Assembly: GCA_003168375.1 (NCBI GenBank)
Contig: PMSI01000002.1
Location: 372,001 to 436,000 of the forward strand
Reading direction: 5' to 3'
DNA length: 64,000 bases
Source: Vulcanimicrobiota bacterium
Lineage (GTDB): Bacteria; Vulcanimicrobiota; Vulcanimicrobiia; Vulcanimicrobiales; Vulcanimicrobiaceae
Every line of letters starts with the position of its first letter. The stretch's first letter is position 1. Below are positions 10,905 to 43,087 of the stretch, piece after piece. Under the pieces are notes generated by a model. The model saw only the letters and a list, made by a program, of their open reading frames with translations. It had not been told where the DNA came from and did no database searches. Both the position numbers and the translations under genes were made by a program.

Positions 10905-10925
10905 CACGTGTGGTTCTCCTTGAAA

Positions 10926-10961
10926 CGGCGAACGCCCCGGCCGCAGCGGCCGGGGCGTTCG
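10926..10961 (-). terminator. Attenuator terminator of ilvE leader
   Basis: A perfect 15-bp stem (10947-10961 as 5' arm, 10929-10943 as 3' arm on the minus strand, loop of 3) is followed by CCGTTT. It lies between the leader-peptide stop and the ilvE ribosome site. The 5' arm contains CGAACG and CCGGCCG, which can pair instead with CGTTCG (10992-10997) and CGGCCGG (11003-11009) in the leader, giving an antiterminator. The T-run is short. Confidence 0.75.
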
Positions 10962-10986
10962 TTTGCGTTGGTTCTGTGGTGTCTGG

Positions 10987-11067
10987 TTACGCGAACGACG
11001 ATCCGGCCGGCGAGCCAAGCTCGACGATAAAAATAGAAACCGGAAGGACGTAATAGCTCGACGCCAT
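10987..11067 (-). CDS. Val/Leu/Ile leader peptide of ilvE attenuator
   Basis: 26 aa. ATG at 11067, TAA at 10987-10989. The segment VLPVSIFIVEL has seven branched-chain residues in eleven, as in ilv leader peptides of enterobacteria. The ATG comes 8 nt after a -10 element, so the mRNA is probably leaderless. Codons for Val, Leu and Ile lie just before the part of the RNA that can pair with the terminator, so a stalled ribosome would favour the antiterminator. Established for ilv leaders elsewhere; inferred here. Confidence 0.78.
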   Translation of the reverse strand: MASSYYVLPVSIFIVELGSPAGSSFA

Positions 11068-11075
11068 GTTGGCGA

Positions 11076-11105
11076 AGCCTAGCACGGCGGCGGGGTCGCG
11101 GTCAA
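11076..11105 (-). promoter_or_regulatory. Promoter of ilvE leader
   Basis: Minus strand: TTGACC (11105-11100), 18-nt spacer, TAGGCT (11081-11076), then 8 nt to the leader ATG. The same spacing is found before the Thr and Met leaders. Confidence 0.65.
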
Positions 11106-34019: not shown

Positions 34020-35237
34020 TTAGGCCGCGTCGCGCCAGACGGGGATCATCGACTGCACCTCGCCGCGCCCCTTCGACAAGCTCTGGATGACATGGCCGAA
34101 TCCGCCGGCCGCCGCTTCGAGCGCGTCGAGCGGCATCGCATCACTCGTCACCACGCTGCCGCTCGCGAACCGTACCAGCACCGGCGCGCGTAGCGGCGCG
34201 GACACCAAATCCTCACCCTCGTGCGCCTGCACGCCGCGCTCGCGCGCTTCGAGCGCCGCCAGCACGTCGGCGACGACCGACGACGCGGTCGCGTCACCCC
34301 CCGCACCCGCGCCCGAGAACACCAGCGTGCCGCAGCCGCGTCCGACCACGCGAACCACGTTCTCCGCGCCGCGCGGCCGCGCGAACGGATGATCTTCCGG
34401 CACGAACGCCGGCGTCACGCCGGCCTCGATCACGTCCCCGGCTTTGCGCGCGACCGCGACGAGCTTCAGCCGCAGGCCGCGCTCCGCACCGGCGCGCACG
34501 TCATCGCGCGAGATCCCGCCGATCCCGCGCCGCGCCAGCGCCGGCGAGACCGAGGGGCGGCGGAACGCGAGCCCCGCCAAGATCGCGAGCTTGTGCGCCG
34601 CGTCGTGCCCGTCGACGTCGCTGCGCGGATCCTGCTCGGCGAAGCCGAGCCGTTGCGCTTCCGCAAGCGCGTCCGCGTACTCCGCGCCGCCATCCATCGC
34701 GTCGAGGACGAAGTTGGTCGTACCGTTGAGCACGCCGCCGATCTCGAACACGTCTTCGCCGGCGAGCGATCCGCCGAGCGCGCGCACGATCGGGATCGCA
34801 CCGCCGACCGCGGCCTCGTAGCGCAGCGATGCGCCGGTGCGCGCCGCGAACGCGGCCAGCCACGGCCCCTCGGTCGCGATCAGGTCCTTGTTCGCCGTGA
34901 CGACGTCCTTGCCGCGCGCGATCGCACGCAGGATCAGCTCGCGCGCCAGCCCGAGCCCGCCGATGCACTCCACCACGACCCGCACCGAGGGATCGTCGAC
35001 GACGTCGAACGCGTCGCTCGAGAAATCATCCCACCGAACGTCGCGTGGCTTGTGCGGATCGCGTACCGCGATCCCGCGAATCAGACCCGGATGCGACGCC
35101 AGCAACCGCCGCGCGACCCCCGACCCGACGGTGCCGCAGCCGAGGAGGCCGACCCCGTTCGCGCGCGCCGTCGTCAGCGACGTCGCCGGGGACGAGATCG
35201 CTTCAGACGAGCACAGGACACGCGGTAGGGTTTGCAC
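34020..35237 (-). CDS. hom: Homoserine dehydrogenase
   Basis: 405 aa from GTG 35237, 5 nt after GGAGG; an ATG at 35249 would bury that site in the gene. NAD(P)-binding GLLGCGTVGSGVARRLL, then VTANKDLIATEG, GAIPIVRALGGSLAG, GVLNGTTNFVLDAM and QDPRSDVDGHDAAHKLAILA, all diagnostic. It reduces aspartate semialdehyde to homoserine, the branch to Thr and Met. The C-terminal region (about 80 residues) is a reduced or divergent regulatory part; its last residues run through a dispersed repeat unit. A Thr/Ile leader peptide and terminator precede it. Confidence 0.95.
   Translation of the reverse strand: MQTLPRVLCSSEAISSPATSLTTARANGVGLLGCGTVGSGVARRLLASHPGLIRGIAVRDPHKPRDVRWDDFSSDAFDVVDDPSVRVVVECIGGLGLARELILRAIARGKDVVTANKDLIATEGPWLAAFAARTGASLRYEAAVGGAIPIVRALGGSLAGEDVFEIGGVLNGTTNFVLDAMDGGAEYADALAEAQRLGFAEQDPRSDVDGHDAAHKLAILAGLAFRRPSVSPALARRGIGGISRDDVRAGAERGLRLKLVAVARKAGDVIEAGVTPAFVPEDHPFARPRGAENVVRVVGRGCGTLVFSGAGAGGDATASSVVADVLAALEARERGVQAHEGEDLVSAPLRAPVLVRFASGSVVTSDAMPLDALEAAAGGFGHVIQSLSKGRGEVQSMIPVWRDAA
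34068..34085 (-). repeat. Dispersed repeat unit (CTTCGACA type) inside hom 3' end
   Basis: CCAGAGCTTGTCGAAGGG on the minus strand matches units at 37540-37557 and 61489-61504 (consensus TGAGCYYGTCGAAGGG). It encodes part of the hom C-terminus (QSLSKG). Confidence 0.5.
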
Positions 35238-35268
35238 GGGAACCTCCATGTGGGGTATCGGGGGAATG

Positions 35269-35298
35269 AAAAAGGCCCTCGCCATTCGGCGAGGGCCT
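35269..35298 (-). terminator. Attenuator terminator of hom leader
   Basis: Perfect 11-bp stem (35298-35288 as 5' arm, 35283-35273 as 3' arm, loop GAAT) followed by TTTTT on the minus strand, 31 nt before the hom start. Its 5' arm GCCCTCGCCG (35296-35287) is exactly complementary to CGGCGAGGGC (35355-35346) in the leader peptide reading frame, giving a 10-bp antiterminator. Confidence 0.88.
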
Positions 35299-35321
35299 CG
35301 TCTCGTATCGCTTCGTCCGCG

Positions 35322-35408
35322 CTAAGCCGACGTCGATCCGGACCTGCCCTCGCCGAGGGTAGTCGTCGTCGTGATCGTCGTCGTCATAATGACGCAGAGC
35401 GCGGGCAT
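35322..35408 (-). CDS. Thr/Ile leader peptide of hom attenuator
   Basis: 28 aa from ATG 35408 (or 21 aa from the in-frame ATG 35387). Its core MTTTITTTTTLGEG closely mirrors enterobacterial ThrL. Nine Thr and two Ile residues; seven of nine Thr codons are ACG. The first ATG is 9 nt after the -10, so the mRNA is probably leaderless. The region coding LGEG is the antiterminator strand. Stalling at Thr codons would prevent the terminator from forming and let hom be made. Confidence 0.85.
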   Translation of the reverse strand: MPALCVIMTTTITTTTTLGEGRSGSTSA

Positions 35409-35417
35409 CGTTCAGTG

Positions 35418-35447
35418 ACCCTACCACGGCCGCACCCCCTCGCACAA
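35418..35447 (-). promoter_or_regulatory. Promoter of hom leader
   Basis: Minus strand: TTGTGC (35447-35442), 18-nt spacer, TAGGGT (35423-35418), 9 nt to the leader ATG; same geometry as the ilvE and metY leaders. Confidence 0.58.
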
Positions 35448-35463
35448 GTGGGCAACCAATCCT

Positions 35464-36468
35464 TTACCGAGTGTTGGCCCGAGCGAGCCACATCTCGATC
35501 GCGGCGTTGACCTGCGCGGGTTGCTCCTGAGCCATCCAGTGCCCCGTCTCCAGAACGAGCTCGGTCAAGTCGGAGCAATCACGCCGCATCGGCTCGGCCA
35601 AACGCGAGTCGACGGTTTCGCAGATCGCATCGTAGGCGGCGTGCAGGAACAACACCGGCAACCGCAGCGCTCCGCCGTCCGCGACGCGAGCCGCGTAGGC
35701 CATGTTCCGGTCGGGGTTCAGATACCAGGAATCGGGTCCCGCGAATCCGGTCCGCGCGAACGCGAAGACGTATCGCGCGAGGTCGTCTTCGGACAGCACC
35801 GCCGGATCGCGCGGCAGATCCGGCGCGCGCCCCGTCCCGCCGAACCAGCCGCCGTCACGGGTGACGCGGGCCGTGAGTGCGGGCTTCCCTTTCTCCCGGA
35901 CGTCTCCGCGGCGGAACAGCGCCTTGAACGTCGCCGGCAAGTCGGCTTCGAACGCCGCCGCAGCGGCGTCGGCTGCGGTCTGATAAAACAACTGGTAATC
36001 CCACTGCCCCGCGGGATACTTCGCTTCCGGATAGACGGTCCGGTCGACCAGCGGCACCACGGTCTCCGGCGTGAAGCCCTTCGCGAAGTACGGGACGCAC
36101 AGGCTGACGACACCGTCGCAACGCTCGGGATGATGTCCGGCGAGCGCCCAGACGAGCGGACCGCCCCAGTCATGACCGATCCAGGTCGCGCGTTCCGCTC
36201 CGAGGCCGCGCAACAGCTCGACCATGTCGAGGACGACCTGCTCCAGCGCGTAGTCCTCGGGGTTTCCCGGGACGTCCGATCTGCCGTATCCGCGCATGTC
36301 GGGCGCGACGCACCGGTATCCGAGCGCCCCGAAATGCTCGAGCTGCTCCCGCCACATCATCCCGAGCGCGGGCCAACCGTGGACGAAGATCAGGAGCGGT
36401 CCGTCGGGCGGCCCGCTCTCGAGATACGCCGTCGTGTGTCGCTCGGTCCGAACGACGTGCTCGGTCAC
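35464..36468 (-). CDS. Alpha/beta hydrolase, epoxide hydrolase-like
   Basis: 334 aa, GTG start overlapping the metX stop by 4 bp. Oxyanion-hole motif HGWPAL, nucleophile in IGHDWGGP (Asp, as in epoxide hydrolases and haloalkane dehalogenases), APDMRGYGRSDVP, and the C-terminal His in LETGHWMAQEQP. HGWP and Asp nucleophile favour a soluble epoxide hydrolase. It is the third gene of a metY-metX operon; a role in sulfur or methionine metabolism is not evident, so it may simply be carried along. Confidence 0.82.
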   Translation of the reverse strand: MTEHVVRTERHTTAYLESGPPDGPLLIFVHGWPALGMMWREQLEHFGALGYRCVAPDMRGYGRSDVPGNPEDYALEQVVLDMVELLRGLGAERATWIGHDWGGPLVWALAGHHPERCDGVVSLCVPYFAKGFTPETVVPLVDRTVYPEAKYPAGQWDYQLFYQTAADAAAAAFEADLPATFKALFRRGDVREKGKPALTARVTRDGGWFGGTGRAPDLPRDPAVLSEDDLARYVFAFARTGFAGPDSWYLNPDRNMAYAARVADGGALRLPVLFLHAAYDAICETVDSRLAEPMRRDCSDLTELVLETGHWMAQEQPAQVNAAIEMWLARANTR

Positions 36469-37567
36469 GAGACCGCCGAGGTGCCGGCGCGGAATGCGCT
36501 CCCGATGCCATCGCGCAGCACGGCCGCCAACGATTCCGGCTCGGCGAGAAACGCGTCGTGTCCGTGATCGCTCGCCAGATCGCGATACTCGACGTCCCAG
36601 CCCGCCTCGCTCCAGCGCGCCGCGCAACTGCGCACGAACTCCGGCGGATACAGCTGGTCGCCGGCGATTCCGACGAACGTGAATCGCGTCGAGCCCGCCG
36701 GCCGCTCCTTCCCGCGCAGATCGAACAAGTCCATCGCACGCGTCAGCATCAAATAGCTGTTCGCATCGAACCGCTGCACGAACACGTCGCCCTGATGCGC
36801 CAGATAGCCTTCGACGTCGAAGCGGTCACCGAGCGAGCGCGACGGATCACCGCCGGCCCGATCCGGCCGGTTCGCGAATCGCGTTTCGAAGAGCGCCTCG
36901 CTCTTGTAGGTCAGCGTCGCGATCGCGCGAGCCAGGCGCAGGCCGTCGACCGGCGGCTCCTCGTACCAGCCCCCGGCGAATTTTGGATCGAGCCGGATCG
37001 CCTCGCGCGCGGCGAAGTTCTGCGCGATCCCCTGCGCGCGCAAGTGATCGAACGTCCCGACCACGATCGCATGATCGACCGCGTCGTCGTACCCGCGCAC
37101 CCACTGCAGGCACTGCTGACCGCCGAGCGACCCGCCGATCGCGACCGCGACCCGCGGAATCCCCAGCTCGCGCAGCGCGCGCCGCTGCGCCTCGACCATG
37201 TCGCCGACGGTGACGACCGGAAACCGCGGACCCCACCGCCGCCCGTCCGGCGCGAGCGAGGACGGCCCGGTCGAGCCGTAGCATCCGCCGAGCACGTTGA
37301 CGCCGACGACACACCACTGTGCGAGATCGAACAGCCCGCCCTCACCGACCAATCCGTCCCACCACTCGACGACGCGCGACGAGCCGCTCAGGGCGTGCGC
37401 GACGAACACGACGTTCGACCCGTCGGCCTTCGGCTCACGCCCGTATCGCGTCACGCGCTGCACGACCGACGGAATCGACGCGCCGGAGGCCAGCTCCAGC
37501 GCGCCGATCTCCACATCACGTTCCGTGATGTGAGCCCGCCCTGAGCCCGTCGAAGGGTCGTGCTCGG

Positions 37568-37571
<4 letters not shown>
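36465..37571 (-). CDS. metX: Homoserine O-acetyltransferase
   Basis: 368 aa, GTG start overlapping the metY stop (GTGA). Alpha/beta hydrolase fold with [23 protein letters not shown], nucleophile [14 protein letters not shown], and C-terminal Asp/His region [13 protein letters not shown]. It acetylates (or succinylates) homoserine for direct sulfhydrylation by MetY. The first 17 codons run through a dispersed repeat unit ([14 protein letters not shown]), which may be a recent N-terminal extension; the conserved domain begins around residue 20. Confidence 0.93.
37540..37557 (+). repeat. Dispersed repeat unit at metX 5' end
   Basis: CCTGAGCCCGTCGAAGGG; on the coding (minus) strand it encodes DPSTGSG at the metX N-terminus. 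Same unit as at 34068-34085 and 61489-61504. Confidence 0.55.
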
Positions 37572-38866
<1,295 letters not shown>

Positions 38867-38908
38867 CGTGGGTCTCCTTCACGAATGCGTGGAGCGCGAA
38901 AGGGCTGG

Positions 38909-38946
38909 AAAACGAAGCAACCCCCGCTGGTGAGGCGAGGGTTGCT
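38909..38946 (-). terminator. Attenuator terminator of metY leader
   Basis: 12-bp stem (38946-38935 as 5' arm with 38927-38916, one G-U pair, loop of 7) followed by TCGTTTT on the minus strand. The 5' arm segment CAACCCTCGC (38944-38935) is exactly complementary to GCGAGGGTTG (38998-38989) inside the leader peptide gene, giving an alternative 10-bp antiterminator. Confidence 0.85.
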
Positions 38947-38966
38947 GTAGCTCCGTCGTACGCCGG

Positions 38967-39041
38967 CTAGGGCGACGACGATCTACACCAACCCTCGCGG
39001 GTGGCACACATCGCCATAATCGCCATACAGCGGCCGTTCAT
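38967..39041 (-). CDS. Met/Cys-rich leader peptide of metY attenuator
   Basis: 24 aa from ATG 39041 (a shorter version could begin at ATG 39026). The segment MNGRCMAIMAMC has four Met and two Cys in twelve residues; a third Cys follows in EGWC. No ribosome site is visible, but the ATG is 8 nt after the -10, so leaderless translation is likely. The codons for REGW form the antiterminator strand. Methionine or cysteine shortage would stall ribosomes and relieve termination. Confidence 0.8.
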   Translation of the reverse strand: MNGRCMAIMAMCATREGWCRSSSP

Positions 39042-39049
39042 ATGGCCGG

Positions 39050-39079
39050 ACCGTACCAGAACCGGCCCGGGGCAGTCAA
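39050..39079 (-). promoter_or_regulatory. Promoter of metY leader
   Basis: Minus strand: TTGACT (39079-39074), 18-nt spacer, TACGGT (39055-39050), 8 nt to the leader ATG. The gene-free stretch 38867-39236 holds this attenuator and, at its other end, the blaI operator; nothing else is visible in 39080-39203. Confidence 0.62.
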
Positions 39080-39236: not shown

Positions 39237-39656
39237 ATGGACCCCATGAGCCCGAAAAAGAAAGCCGACCTCGGCAAGGCTCTGGGAACCCGCCAGGCCT
39301 CGATCCTCGAGTACCTTTGGGCGCACGGGCCGCAGTCGGTGTCCGACCTTCATCGCGGGCTGTCCGAGCGCGAGGACCTTGCGTACACGACGGTGTTCAC
39401 CGAACTGAGCCGGATGCTCAAGAAGGGCCTCGTCGCGAAGGGCAACGATGGCGGCTCGCATCTCGACATGCGGTACCGCGCGGCCGTGACGCGCGACGGC
39501 GTCGTCTCGACGATCGTGGCGCAGACACTCGGGGGGCTGATCTCGGCCCACGGGCCGGCCGCCGTCCACGGCTTCGTCGACGCAGTCGCGAGCGATCCCG
39601 GCGCCCTCGACGAACTGCGTCGCCTCCTCGACGATCGTTCGCGCAAGAAGCGCTAG
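39237..39656 (+). CDS. BlaI/MecI/CopY-family repressor
   Basis: 139 aa (a second ATG at 39246 is possible). N-terminal winged helix: GTRQASILEYLWAHGPQSVSDLHRGLSE, AYTTVFTELSRMLKKGLVAK; C-terminal dimerisation helices. Family members repress beta-lactamase or copper-efflux genes and are released by proteolysis (BlaR1) or metal binding (CopY). No CxCx4CxC metal site is seen, so release by the adjacent BlaR1/M56-like protease is more likely. It is 4 bp upstream of that gene. Confidence 0.88.
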   Translation: MDPMSPKKKADLGKALGTRQASILEYLWAHGPQSVSDLHRGLSEREDLAYTTVFTELSRMLKKGLVAKGNDGGSHLDMRYRAAVTRDGVVSTIVAQTLGGLISAHGPAAVHGFVDAVASDPGALDELRRLLDDRSRKKR

Positions 39657-39660
39657 CGGC

Positions 39661-40449
39661 GTGCGGTTCATCCGCGCGCTCTGGCCCGTCATCTTCTTGG
39701 TGCCGCTCTCCTGGTGGGCCGACCGCGGCTGTCAGTTTGCGGGCGTCGACCCGCTCTATCACACGACGCTTTGGGTACACGAACGTCTTGGCTGGTTCAT
39801 TGGCATACTCGCGGTCATCTCTGCGGGCGTCGTGGTCGCAAAGATCAGCGTTGCCCAACTCCGATTCGCGCGACTGCAAGCCGTTGCCGACACCGTGCCC
39901 GAGCGGGTGCAGCATGCCTTTGCGGTCGCCTGCGCAAACCTCGAGGTCGCCATCCCGAACGTCCTGTACGTCGACCTCACGGTGCCGATCGCAACGACGG
40001 TCTTCGGTCGGACCATCGTGCTCTCGCGGGGATTTCTCGACCCGCTCGACGACGCGGACCTCGAACTCGTGGTTCGACACGAGCTGGCACATGTGCGCCA
40101 TGGTGACGCGACCTCGGGCGTCCTTTGGCATCTCGCTTTTGCCGCTTTGCTCATCCCGGGCTTCGAGCCTCTCGAACGTCGGCTCCACGCACGACGTGAG
40201 CGCTCGGCGAACCTCACCGCGGCGAAGGGACGAGAAGAACAGTATCTTTCCTTGGTCACCCGCATCTCGCGCGGAGCTGACCTGTGCGCGGATGCCCGGT
40301 TAGGCCTCGAAGCAGCGGCCCGCAGACCCGAGGACCGCTGGCTGGTCTGGATTGCCCCGCTGGTCGTGATGTGTTTGGCGGTCGCGCTCCCCGTGAGTCA
40401 TGCCGAGTTCCGGCACGACTTGCCTTACCTGGTCTCGCATCACTGTTAG
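39661..40449 (+). CDS. M56/M48-type membrane metallopeptidase
   Basis: 262 aa, GTG start. Two N-terminal helices (WPVIFLVPLSWWA; LGWFIGILAVISAGVVVA), a cytoplasmic protease domain with zinc motif HELAHVRHGD and a downstream RRERSAN segment that could hold the third ligand, then a C-terminal helix (WLVWIAPLVVMCLAVALPV). It resembles the BlaR1 protease module without the penicillin sensor. With the upstream repressor it forms a two-gene induction pair, here facing metal-handling genes. Confidence 0.82.
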   Translation: MRFIRALWPVIFLVPLSWWADRGCQFAGVDPLYHTTLWVHERLGWFIGILAVISAGVVVAKISVAQLRFARLQAVADTVPERVQHAFAVACANLEVAIPNVLYVDLTVPIATTVFGRTIVLSRGFLDPLDDADLELVVRHELAHVRHGDATSGVLWHLAFAALLIPGFEPLERRLHARRERSANLTAAKGREEQYLSLVTRISRGADLCADARLGLEAAARRPEDRWLVWIAPLVVMCLAVALPVSHAEFRHDLPYLVSHHC

Positions 40450-41475: not shown

Positions 41476-41517
41476 GCGACTTCGAGGCGAAGGGAAACCG
41501 TTGCTTCCGGTAAAGCG

Positions 41518-41535
41518 TACTACTCAACGTAGTAT
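41518..41535 (+). promoter_or_regulatory. Perfect dyad operator before outer-membrane protein gene
   Basis: TACTAC-TCAAC-GTAGTA (41518-41534) overlaps a -10-like TAGTAT (41530-41535), 26 nt before the likely TTG start. The same 6-5-6 layout lies before the blaI-type gene, so the repressor probably controls both. Confidence 0.6.
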
Positions 41536-41560
41536 GCCCGCGTCTGTACCCGAGGTCCCC

Positions 41561-43087
41561 TTGTTCCCGCTCCGTCTCACTCTGGTCGCTGCCCTCGTCC
41601 TCCTGACCGTAGCGCCAGGGCTTGCCGCCCCGGCCACGATGGCCCCCATGCCCGGGATGCCAAAGGCGAGCCCCACGCCGGCCAAGACCATGGCTCCGAT
41701 GCCGGGCATGACGGCAAAGCCGTCCGCCGCGCCGACGATGGCTCCCATGCCCGGGATGACCACGGCGCCGGCAGTCCCGCCGGCGTCTCCGACGCCCGCC
41801 TCAATGCCCGGCATGAATATGAATGGCGTTCGCGGGACTTCGATGAGCGCGATGGACATGTCCTCAACGACCGACCTTGCGGACCCGATGAGTCAGGCGG
41901 GCTCGGGCACGTCGTGGGTGCCGAAATCCACCCAGATATTCGGCTGGATGCGCCAGGGTGCGCGCGACATGCAGATGACGCACGGAGCCATCTTCCCGCG
42001 CTACGTCTCGTCGGGGTCGCTACGCGGTGATCGTCGAGCCGATGCCCCGAATTGGCTGATGTTCATGGGGACGCATGCCATCAGTGCATCCTCGCAATTC
42101 GGCTACACGGCGATGGTAAGCGCGGACGCGCTCACAGAAAACCAATCAGGGTATCCGCTGCTGTTCCAATCCGGCGAGACGGCACACGGTGCGCCATTGC
42201 ATGACCACCAGCATCCGCACGACCTCTTTGCCGAACTCGCCGTAGACTATTCGGCTCGCGTCGGTAAGGCGGCGTCGGCCTATCTCTACCTTGGGTATCC
42301 GGGAGAACCGGCACTCGGGCCGCCGGCGTTCATGCACCGCCGCATCGCTTACGACATGCCGGAAGCGCCCATCGGCCATCACTGGCAAGACGCATCGCAC
42401 ATTCAGTTCGGCGTCGCGACGGTCGGCTTTGCGCCGAGCTCACGCGTCAAGATCGAGGCGAGCACGTTCACCGGTCGCGAGCCGAATGAGATTCGGACCA
42501 ACTTCGACCCGATCCATCTTGACTCGTACAGCCAGCGGGTGTCGTGGAATCCGAACGACAACTCCGCGGCGGAAGTGTCATACGCGTACATCAAGAGCCC
42601 CGATGTGACGAGCCCTCTCGTGGACCAACATCGTCTGGTGGCCTCGTTGCTGCTCAACAAGCCGCTCGGCGTCAATCACAATTGGTACACCGGCTTCATC
42701 GTTGGTCAGAATGTCGAGACCGGCGGAACGCGCACCAGTTCCTATCTCGCGGAGACGGATTATCAAGCCGGGCGAAACACCGTGTTCGCTCGCGTTGAAA
42801 TCGGTACCCGAACCGCGCATGACCTGGTCATCCCTGGTGCACCGGCGGACACCGTCTATACGGTCGGTTCGTACTCGATTGGTGGGGTGCGCGACCTCAC
42901 GCGCAATTCGAGCGCGGCGAATATCGGCATCGGAGCACAATTGACCCTGGGCAGCAAGGATGTGGGCTTGAATCCGTACTACGGCTCCGGCACGCCCGTC
43001 GGCTACCAAGTGTTCTTCCGGATTCGTCCGCCCGATATGGCACACACCCTGGGAAGCATGGCCGGCATGAGCGGAATGCAACATTGA
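41561..43087 (+). CDS. Met-rich outer-membrane protein of metal cluster
   Basis: About 508 aa from TTG 41561, which follows CGAGG and begins a good signal peptide (FPLRLTLVAALVLLTVAPGLAAPA); TTG 41501 or ATG 41534 are alternatives that would place the operator in the gene. Residues about 26-100 carry three MAPMPGM repeats and more Met pairs, likely Cu(I) ligands. The rest is beta-barrel-like with HDHQHPHDLFAELAVDYSARVGKAASAYLYLGYPGEPALGPPAFMHR. The C-terminus is again Met-rich (MAGMSGM). Probably an outer-membrane metal-binding or efflux component; the family is unnamed to my knowledge. Confidence 0.7.
   Translation: MFPLRLTLVAALVLLTVAPGLAAPATMAPMPGMPKASPTPAKTMAPMPGMTAKPSAAPTMAPMPGMTTAPAVPPASPTPASMPGMNMNGVRGTSMSAMDMSSTTDLADPMSQAGSGTSWVPKSTQIFGWMRQGARDMQMTHGAIFPRYVSSGSLRGDRRADAPNWLMFMGTHAISASSQFGYTAMVSADALTENQSGYPLLFQSGETAHGAPLHDHQHPHDLFAELAVDYSARVGKAASAYLYLGYPGEPALGPPAFMHRRIAYDMPEAPIGHHWQDASHIQFGVATVGFAPSSRVKIEASTFTGREPNEIRTNFDPIHLDSYSQRVSWNPNDNSAAEVSYAYIKSPDVTSPLVDQHRLVASLLLNKPLGVNHNWYTGFIVGQNVETGGTRTSSYLAETDYQAGRNTVFARVEIGTRTAHDLVIPGAPADTVYTVGSYSIGGVRDLTRNSSAANIGIGAQLTLGSKDVGLNPYYGSGTPVGYQVFFRIRPPDMAHTLGSMAGMSGMQH

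Follow-up and report, generated by a model that had tools for sequence, protein, structure and literature searches.

The window analysed here, a 64-kb stretch of DNA covering positions 372001–436000 of its contig, belongs to the 4.43-Mb genome of an uncultured soil bacterium of the phylum Eremiobacterota, and the MetY encoded in it is 91% identical to that of Candidatus Eremiobacterota L032, among the close relatives in public records. A compact leader element, composed of a promoter, a short Met/Cys-rich ORF, and an intrinsic terminator, occupies the minus strand in the gap that separates a BlaI-type repressor gene (39237–39656, plus strand) from the metY-metX operon (Table 1). In an initial annotation, the element had been read as a Met/Cys-coded leader peptide attenuating metY-metX, with an upper limit at 39079, where the -35 box TTGACT begins. 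The downstream genes that it named were borne out by NCBIfam matches above the cut-offs, and the GTG start of metX (37571) overlaps the metY stop. The 12-bp terminator followed by TCGTTTT (38946–38916) and the exact 10-bp alternative pairing (GCGAGGGTTG, 38998–38989, with CAACCCTCGC, 38944–38935) are likewise present; the leader ORF is real, but the extent quoted for it was too short, as it runs for 24 codons from an ATG at 39041 to a stop at 38967. Divergently from the element, a BlaI/CopY-like repressor gene and then an M56/M48-type peptidase gene occupy 39237–40449 (plus strand), and a large ORF at 41501–43087 (plus strand), possibly metal-related, carries repeated Met-rich MPGM motifs near its start.

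Table 1 Features of the metY-metX leader element and of two sister attenuators in the window.
Feature	Position	Strand	Details and basis
Promoter, sigma-70-like	39050–39079	-	-35 TTGACT 39079–39074, 18-nt spacer, -10 TACGGT 39055–39050
Leader ORF, 24 codons	38967–39041	-	MNGRCMAIMAMCATREGWCRSSSP and stop; sequence; Met/Cys-rich leader kept in 33 relatives
Regulatory codons 5–12	39006–39029	-	TGT ATG GCG ATT ATG GCG ATG TGT (C M A I M A M C); sequence
Antiterminator 5' strand	38971–38998	-	within the leader ORF, directly 3' of the Met/Cys codons; folding and sequence
Antiterminator 3' strand	38935–38964	-	includes the terminator 5' arm; folding and sequence
Intrinsic terminator	38909–38946	-	12-bp stem 38946–38916, AGCAACCCTCGCCTCACCAGCGGGGGTTGCT, then U-rich tail TCGTTTT; sequence, covariation
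metY ribosome-binding site	38871–38880	-	GAAGGAGACC; sequence
metY, O-acetylhomoserine sulfhydrylase	37568–38866	-	NCBIfam PRK08248 homocysteine synthase, 737 bits (cut-off 726)
metX, homoserine O-acetyltransferase	36465–37571	-	NCBIfam PRK00175, 333 bits (cut-off 331)
Sister attenuator of hom	35265–35447	-	promoter 35447–35418, leader MPALCVIMTTTITTTTTLGEGRSGSTSA and stop 35408–35322, terminator 35299–35265; R1 58 bits
hom, homoserine dehydrogenase	34020–35285	-	Pfam PF00742, PF03447; true start probably nearer 35249
Sister attenuator of ilvE	10922–11105	-	promoter 11105–11076, leader MASSYYVLPVSIFIVELGSPAGSSFA and stop 11067–10987, hairpin and T-rich tail 10960–10922; R1 57 bits

As read from the sequence of this locus, 8 nt separate the end of the -10 box from the leader ATG, so that transcription is predicted to start at the ATG or within about 2 nt of it; from this spacing, the leader transcript would be a leaderless, or nearly leaderless, RNA. 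A generic consensus scan did not list this promoter (39079–39050). The arrangement as a whole stands apart from chance. The fold of the 151-nt leader is better than that of shuffled sequences by 4.4 sd, none of 200 shuffles being as good. A short ORF with at least four Met/Cys in eight codons followed by a terminator occurs a single time when both strands of the 64-kb window are scanned, namely at this locus, and never when the intergenic region is dinucleotide-shuffled 3000 times.

The 10-bp pairing proved to be the base of a much longer antiterminator hairpin, with a computed energy of -45.8 kcal/mol. Its competition with the terminator was analyzed with a ribosome model, in which the leading edge lies 16 nt from the P-site codon and the terminator probability is calculated at equilibrium for each ribosome position. 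With the A site at codons 5–11, the terminator probability was 0.00–0.26, favoring the antiterminator; it was 0.44 at Cys12 and 0.93–0.99 from codon 13 to the stop. The folding energy of the free RNA before synthesis of the terminator 3' arm was -45.8 kcal/mol with the ribosome at Met6 or Met9, -36 at Cys12, -17 at codon 16, and -1.2 at the stop. The E. coli thrL leader, taken as a control, showed a similar fall in energy (-23 to 0), with the terminator always winning at equilibrium. Since the proven thrL thus fails as well, equilibrium terminator probability was not used for judging leaders. An antiterminator that excludes the terminator while the ribosome sits on the regulatory codons was found for the window leader, where the switch is sharp, and is weaker at equilibrium in the relatives, in most of which the terminator wins even with a stalled ribosome.

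MetY orthologues were then located in the family, and the DNA upstream was read for leaders. All the same-genus metY loci with upstream sequence carry one; in many other genera, hom lies directly before metY and the leader is found 5' of hom. The recurrence of Met/Cys ORFs with terminators in relatives, which the initial annotation had put forward as a check, was thereby confirmed in 33 leaders from about 15 genera, all upstream of metY or hom-metY, and the pattern that it had named as contrary to its proposal, a conserved terminator with unconserved Met codons, is not what these leaders display, as codons and terminator are kept together. Examples are MDACCMAMMAMC, MDRRPAMMMMCC, MSAHARMMTMAMCC, MFTAVAMMCPMCCMQM, MFATTTAMMCSMCRMQM, MFQTSMMTCSMC, and MISFASRMSTCC. 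Common to the leaders are an ATG that is leaderless or nearly so, a cluster of Met and Cys codons, and a terminator that covaries; elsewhere the peptides differ. All 33 start with ATG, and 32 carry TTGAC-N17/18-TANNNT with 6–9 nt (mode 7) between the -10 box and the ATG, a spacing that is the signature of leaderless RNA according to the predicted transcription starts. Because most of the 33 leaders were chosen by their Met/Cys content, this richness is in itself no independent evidence; such evidence lies in the recurrence of the leaders at the orthologous place and in the tests on frame, covariation, and sister leaders.

Of 528 codons in the ORF frame, 179 encode Met or Cys, compared with 70 and 14 in the other two frames, and within the genus the end of the ORF shifts frame among species (ending in REGRCRSSSP or in PRGTV), with the Met/Cys part remaining in frame. 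Across genera, 9 of the 11 terminator pairs have changed on both sides, a value reached in none of 500 shuffles, and the terminator covaries within the genus, too. The RNA portions conserved across genera are the promoter, the Met/Cys codons of the ORF, and the terminator. An antiterminator strand lies directly 3' of the regulatory codons in nearly all relatives. Within the genus, helix 1 of the antiterminator is 96% paired and mostly invariant, and its covariation was dropped as a test, a nearly invariant helix giving no information. A cross-genus arm-swap duplex test gave a modest result (permutation p = 0.002), because the terminator arms are alike across genera.

In 0.49 Mb of metY regions, largely from other phyla, the matches were the Eremiobacterota loci and one unconvincing ORF. 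Within the phylum, five genomes of one group, spanning four or five genera (L134, L135, L137, L138, and L143), have hom-metY without leader or terminator; there, a promoter of the same kind is kept before hom, the start of which looks conserved. A second metY paralogue (about 56% identical) showed no Met/Cys leader in 20 upstream stretches (L152–L171). In several genomes, this paralogue lies a few kilobases behind a match to R1, a covariance model that spans the promoter, the leader, and the terminator, and in G000 that match precedes a sulfonate-type transporter gene.

The search with R1 covered 149 genomes of the phylum as well as selected genomes; having been trained on Met/Cys leaders, the model favors them, and its matches give a minimum for the attenuators in each genome. 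The best score in 14 genomes of other phyla was 29.8 bits, as against about 36–156 bits among the phylum matches listed, and matches below about 35 bits were therefore not trusted alone. The leader of one weak match in another phylum (L306, Pseudothauera) is of the Ile/Val/Leu type and stands upstream of ilvB. Two R1 matches (locus L251 of G087 and locus L289 of G117) were discarded, as they have no recognizable leader.

Strong R1 matches (family f1) recur in the same genomes before other genes, with leader codons matching the gene. Cys/Met leaders precede genes for sulfite reductase (MLLCCCLLMAC) and a sulfonate-type transporter (VSNQYCLMAMCICC), the search also yielding a leader of cysH (MISLAVRACASC); Thr/Ile leaders precede hom (MPALCVIMTTTITTTTTLGEG) and thrC (MMLFASSVTTTTTTTTTTTT); Ile/Val/Leu leaders precede ilvA, ilvB (MISAQSLILVVLIS), ilvC (MFARLVLVLSVIL), ilvE (MASSYYVLPVSIFIVEL), and leuA (MLVTSLLLLALAL); and Phe/Tyr/Trp leaders precede pheA (MAVTSWFYRYFYAEC), aroA (MSACAFWYRLYYGY), and a DAHP synthase gene. 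For thrC, ilvA, ilvB, leuA, and the DAHP synthase of L266, the name was assigned by inspecting the protein sequence, not by a family search. As group means, the Met/Cys fraction in leaders of sulfur genes, metY excepted, is 0.27 and that in leaders of non-sulfur genes 0.05 (p = 8e-10), the Thr fraction is 0.39–0.45 before hom or thrC, the Ile/Val/Leu fraction is 0.49 before ilv/leu genes, and the Phe/Tyr/Trp fraction is 0.30 before aromatic genes. Moreover, Met outweighs Cys in leaders of Met genes (M 0.20, C 0.12), and the reverse holds for leaders of sulfite reductase (M 0.08, C 0.18). In view of the training of R1 on Met/Cys leaders, a control was made in which loci were chosen by their gene, sulfite reductase, whatever the codons in front of it: where this gene heads an operon, a Cys-rich leader was found at 11 of 12 loci (7 by a strict scan and 4 by eye, some being R1 matches as well).

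Two such sister attenuators lie in the window itself (Table 1), and the gene downstream of the one ending at 10922 encodes a branched-chain transaminase. The ThrL-like attenuator of hom has orthologues in G087, G088, and G094; in other genera, where hom is cotranscribed with metY, hom has a Met/Cys leader instead. A class-level relative has MKRRRTCCTMMTGT before hom (R1 34 bits). Several further leaders were encountered on the way. In two order-level relatives (L285 in G129 and L286 in G127), a Cys/Met leader beginning with VNRYAVPCVMCPTPRMH and a terminator precede a sodium:solute-symporter-like gene (about 33 bits), and this leader, if real, predicts a Met or Cys transporter. A Cys-rich leader, MFETGRSAMCCCLCRPRTGRPGFSLA, and a terminator stand before an AhpC/TSA peroxiredoxin gene (L217, G094:C19). 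The leader MNACCEKMACCMSPLLGSA precedes a gene for a RimK-like ATP-grasp ligase (L235, G045:C1:261044-261208), which suggests that the ligase may be linked to Cys or Met.

Collectively, we conclude, with a probability of about 0.9, that the metY-metX operon is under the control of this element, acting as a ribosome-mediated transcription attenuator by which charged tRNA-Met and tRNA-Cys are sensed. This agrees with the attenuation by a Met/Cys leader peptide proposed in the initial annotation; the relatives' leaders and the matching-codon leaders of other pathways support it. Transcription would begin at or beside the leader ATG, and the leader would be translated from the (nearly) leaderless RNA predicted by the promoter spacing. 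When Met and Cys are ample, the ribosome would pass codons 5–12 and proceed to the stop at 38967, covering the antiterminator 5' strand; the terminator 5' arm would then be free to form the 38946–38916 hairpin, the structures being computed, and transcription would presumably stop. When Met-tRNA or Cys-tRNA is scarce, the ribosome would wait on codons 5–12 with its leading edge at or just before the antiterminator, which in the computed geometry captures the terminator 5' arm, and RNA polymerase would be expected to read into metY-metX. The operon is thus very probably switched on only when Met or Cys runs short. Sensing of both sulfur amino acids is sensible, since MetY makes homocysteine by joining sulfide and O-acetylhomoserine. 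There is a conceptual difficulty, which counts against the attenuator reading: a Met-coded leader is itself obliged to begin with fMet, and how it can report a shortage of Met is a puzzle.

It is quite unlikely that stalling depends instead on the sequence of the nascent Met/Cys-rich peptide, which might bind a metal or an oxidant, and not on uncharged tRNA. Met/Cys-rich peptides can bind metals, and the Cys-rich leader before the peroxiredoxin gene in one genome would suit such a role, but what is conserved is the Met/Cys content only: the residues differ in order and spacing, the C-terminus is variable, and the ORF end shifts frame. No peptide sequence conserved at a fixed place, as expected of an arrest peptide, was found among the collected leaders. 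Furthermore, Thr, Ile/Val/Leu, and aromatic sister leaders of equal build precede matching genes, and this agreement of codons with genes fits tRNA charging, not metal binding.

Methionine genes are normally under the control of SAM riboswitches, T-boxes, or repressors, and the terminator with its alternative fold could also serve a leader RNA that binds SAM or uncharged tRNA directly, the ORF being incidental. This is very unlikely, as no Rfam family lies at the site and the conserved RNA portions are those of promoter, Met/Cys codons, and terminator. At gathering scores, a tRNA was the sole Rfam match in the window, with neither a SAM riboswitch nor a T-box; no T-box match was seen at the site up to E = 5, and the SAM-I riboswitch (RF00162) was found in none of 31 genomes. 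Finally, although the ORF has its own promoter and terminator, it is extremely unlikely to be an independent small-protein gene with the metY promoter further down, as the peptide is not conserved beyond Met/Cys and its end shifts frame, the ORF of nearly all relatives contains a pairing partner for the terminator arm, the leader codons follow the downstream pathway, and a promoter scan found no promoter-like site between the terminator and metY.

Returning to the tRNA-reading attenuator, the analysis supports its placement in a sulfur-amino-acid regulon inside a larger set of attenuators; the same device with other codons would govern further amino-acid genes in these genomes. With less confidence than for metY-metX itself, we consider it probable that a sulfur regulon of Eremiobacterota, comprising metY-metX or hom-metY, sulfite reductase, cysH, a sulfonate-type transporter, a cystathionine-type enzyme, a peroxiredoxin, and perhaps a sodium symporter, is governed not by riboswitches or repressors but by leaderless leaders that jointly read Met-tRNA and Cys-tRNA, with the Met:Cys ratio tuned for each gene, within an attenuation program for most amino-acid pathways. 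A whole bacterial group appears to use the translating ribosome as a sensor for Met, Cys, and several other amino-acid families, and the leaders give amino-acid-specific functional labels to the unknown genes behind them. Most records of ribosome-mediated attenuation so far come from proteobacteria, actinobacteria, and some Firmicutes (PMC2965389), and its range would thereby be extended to a largely uncultured phylum; a search of the open-access literature returned nothing joining names in Eremiobacter with leader peptides.

Among known systems, the SAM-I (S-box) riboswitch also controls methionine genes by transcription termination, but its aptamer senses SAM and needs no translation, and the RF00162 search did not find it here. 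In a survey of Actinobacteria, methionine operons had no conserved RNA structure upstream. The mycobacterial cys operons carry polycysteine leader ORFs, in which the run of Cys codons lies close to the stop and which lack a conserved terminator hairpin (PMC1262725), and these leaders are reported to be cysteine-responsive, according to Canestrari 2020 as cited in PMC13236596. They resemble the present element as short leaderless ORFs with sulfur-amino-acid codons before sulfur genes, the leaderless start being predicted here from the promoter-to-ATG spacing. They differ in that the element has Met plus Cys in mid-ORF and a canonical terminator with an antiterminator; indeed, the combination of a Cys run near the stop with a missing terminator hairpin was not found in the Eremiobacterota leaders. 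A Met/Cys leader, held to be uncommon in the initial annotation, is indeed rare, yet not unprecedented: metL of Streptomyces lividans, a leaderless Met/Cys leader ending in RCMCRRMCAF, has already been recorded (PMC8079986). By its described features, metL is alike in being a leaderless Met/Cys-containing leader before a methionine operon; it differs in preceding the metNIQ importer genes, in being known from a single species, and in having no typical Rho-independent terminator (PMC8079986).

The closest likeness is to the proteobacterial thrL, hisL, leuL, ilvL, pheL, and trpL, in which a leader ORF with codons for the pathway product is followed by an intrinsic terminator before the first gene. 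Clustered product codons, and an intrinsic terminator between the leader ORF and the first gene, were both found here, and, as in these classical attenuators, the antiterminator overlaps the downstream flank of the regulatory codons, with an energy profile like that of E. coli thrL. The differences are the Met and Cys codons, the ATG at or beside the predicted transcription start, and the other phylum. It is well supported that the element is real and works like thrL or hisL, by the classical mechanism; the novelty lies in the joining of Met and Cys codons to a canonical attenuator with a terminator, in the sulfur regulon, and in the phylum.
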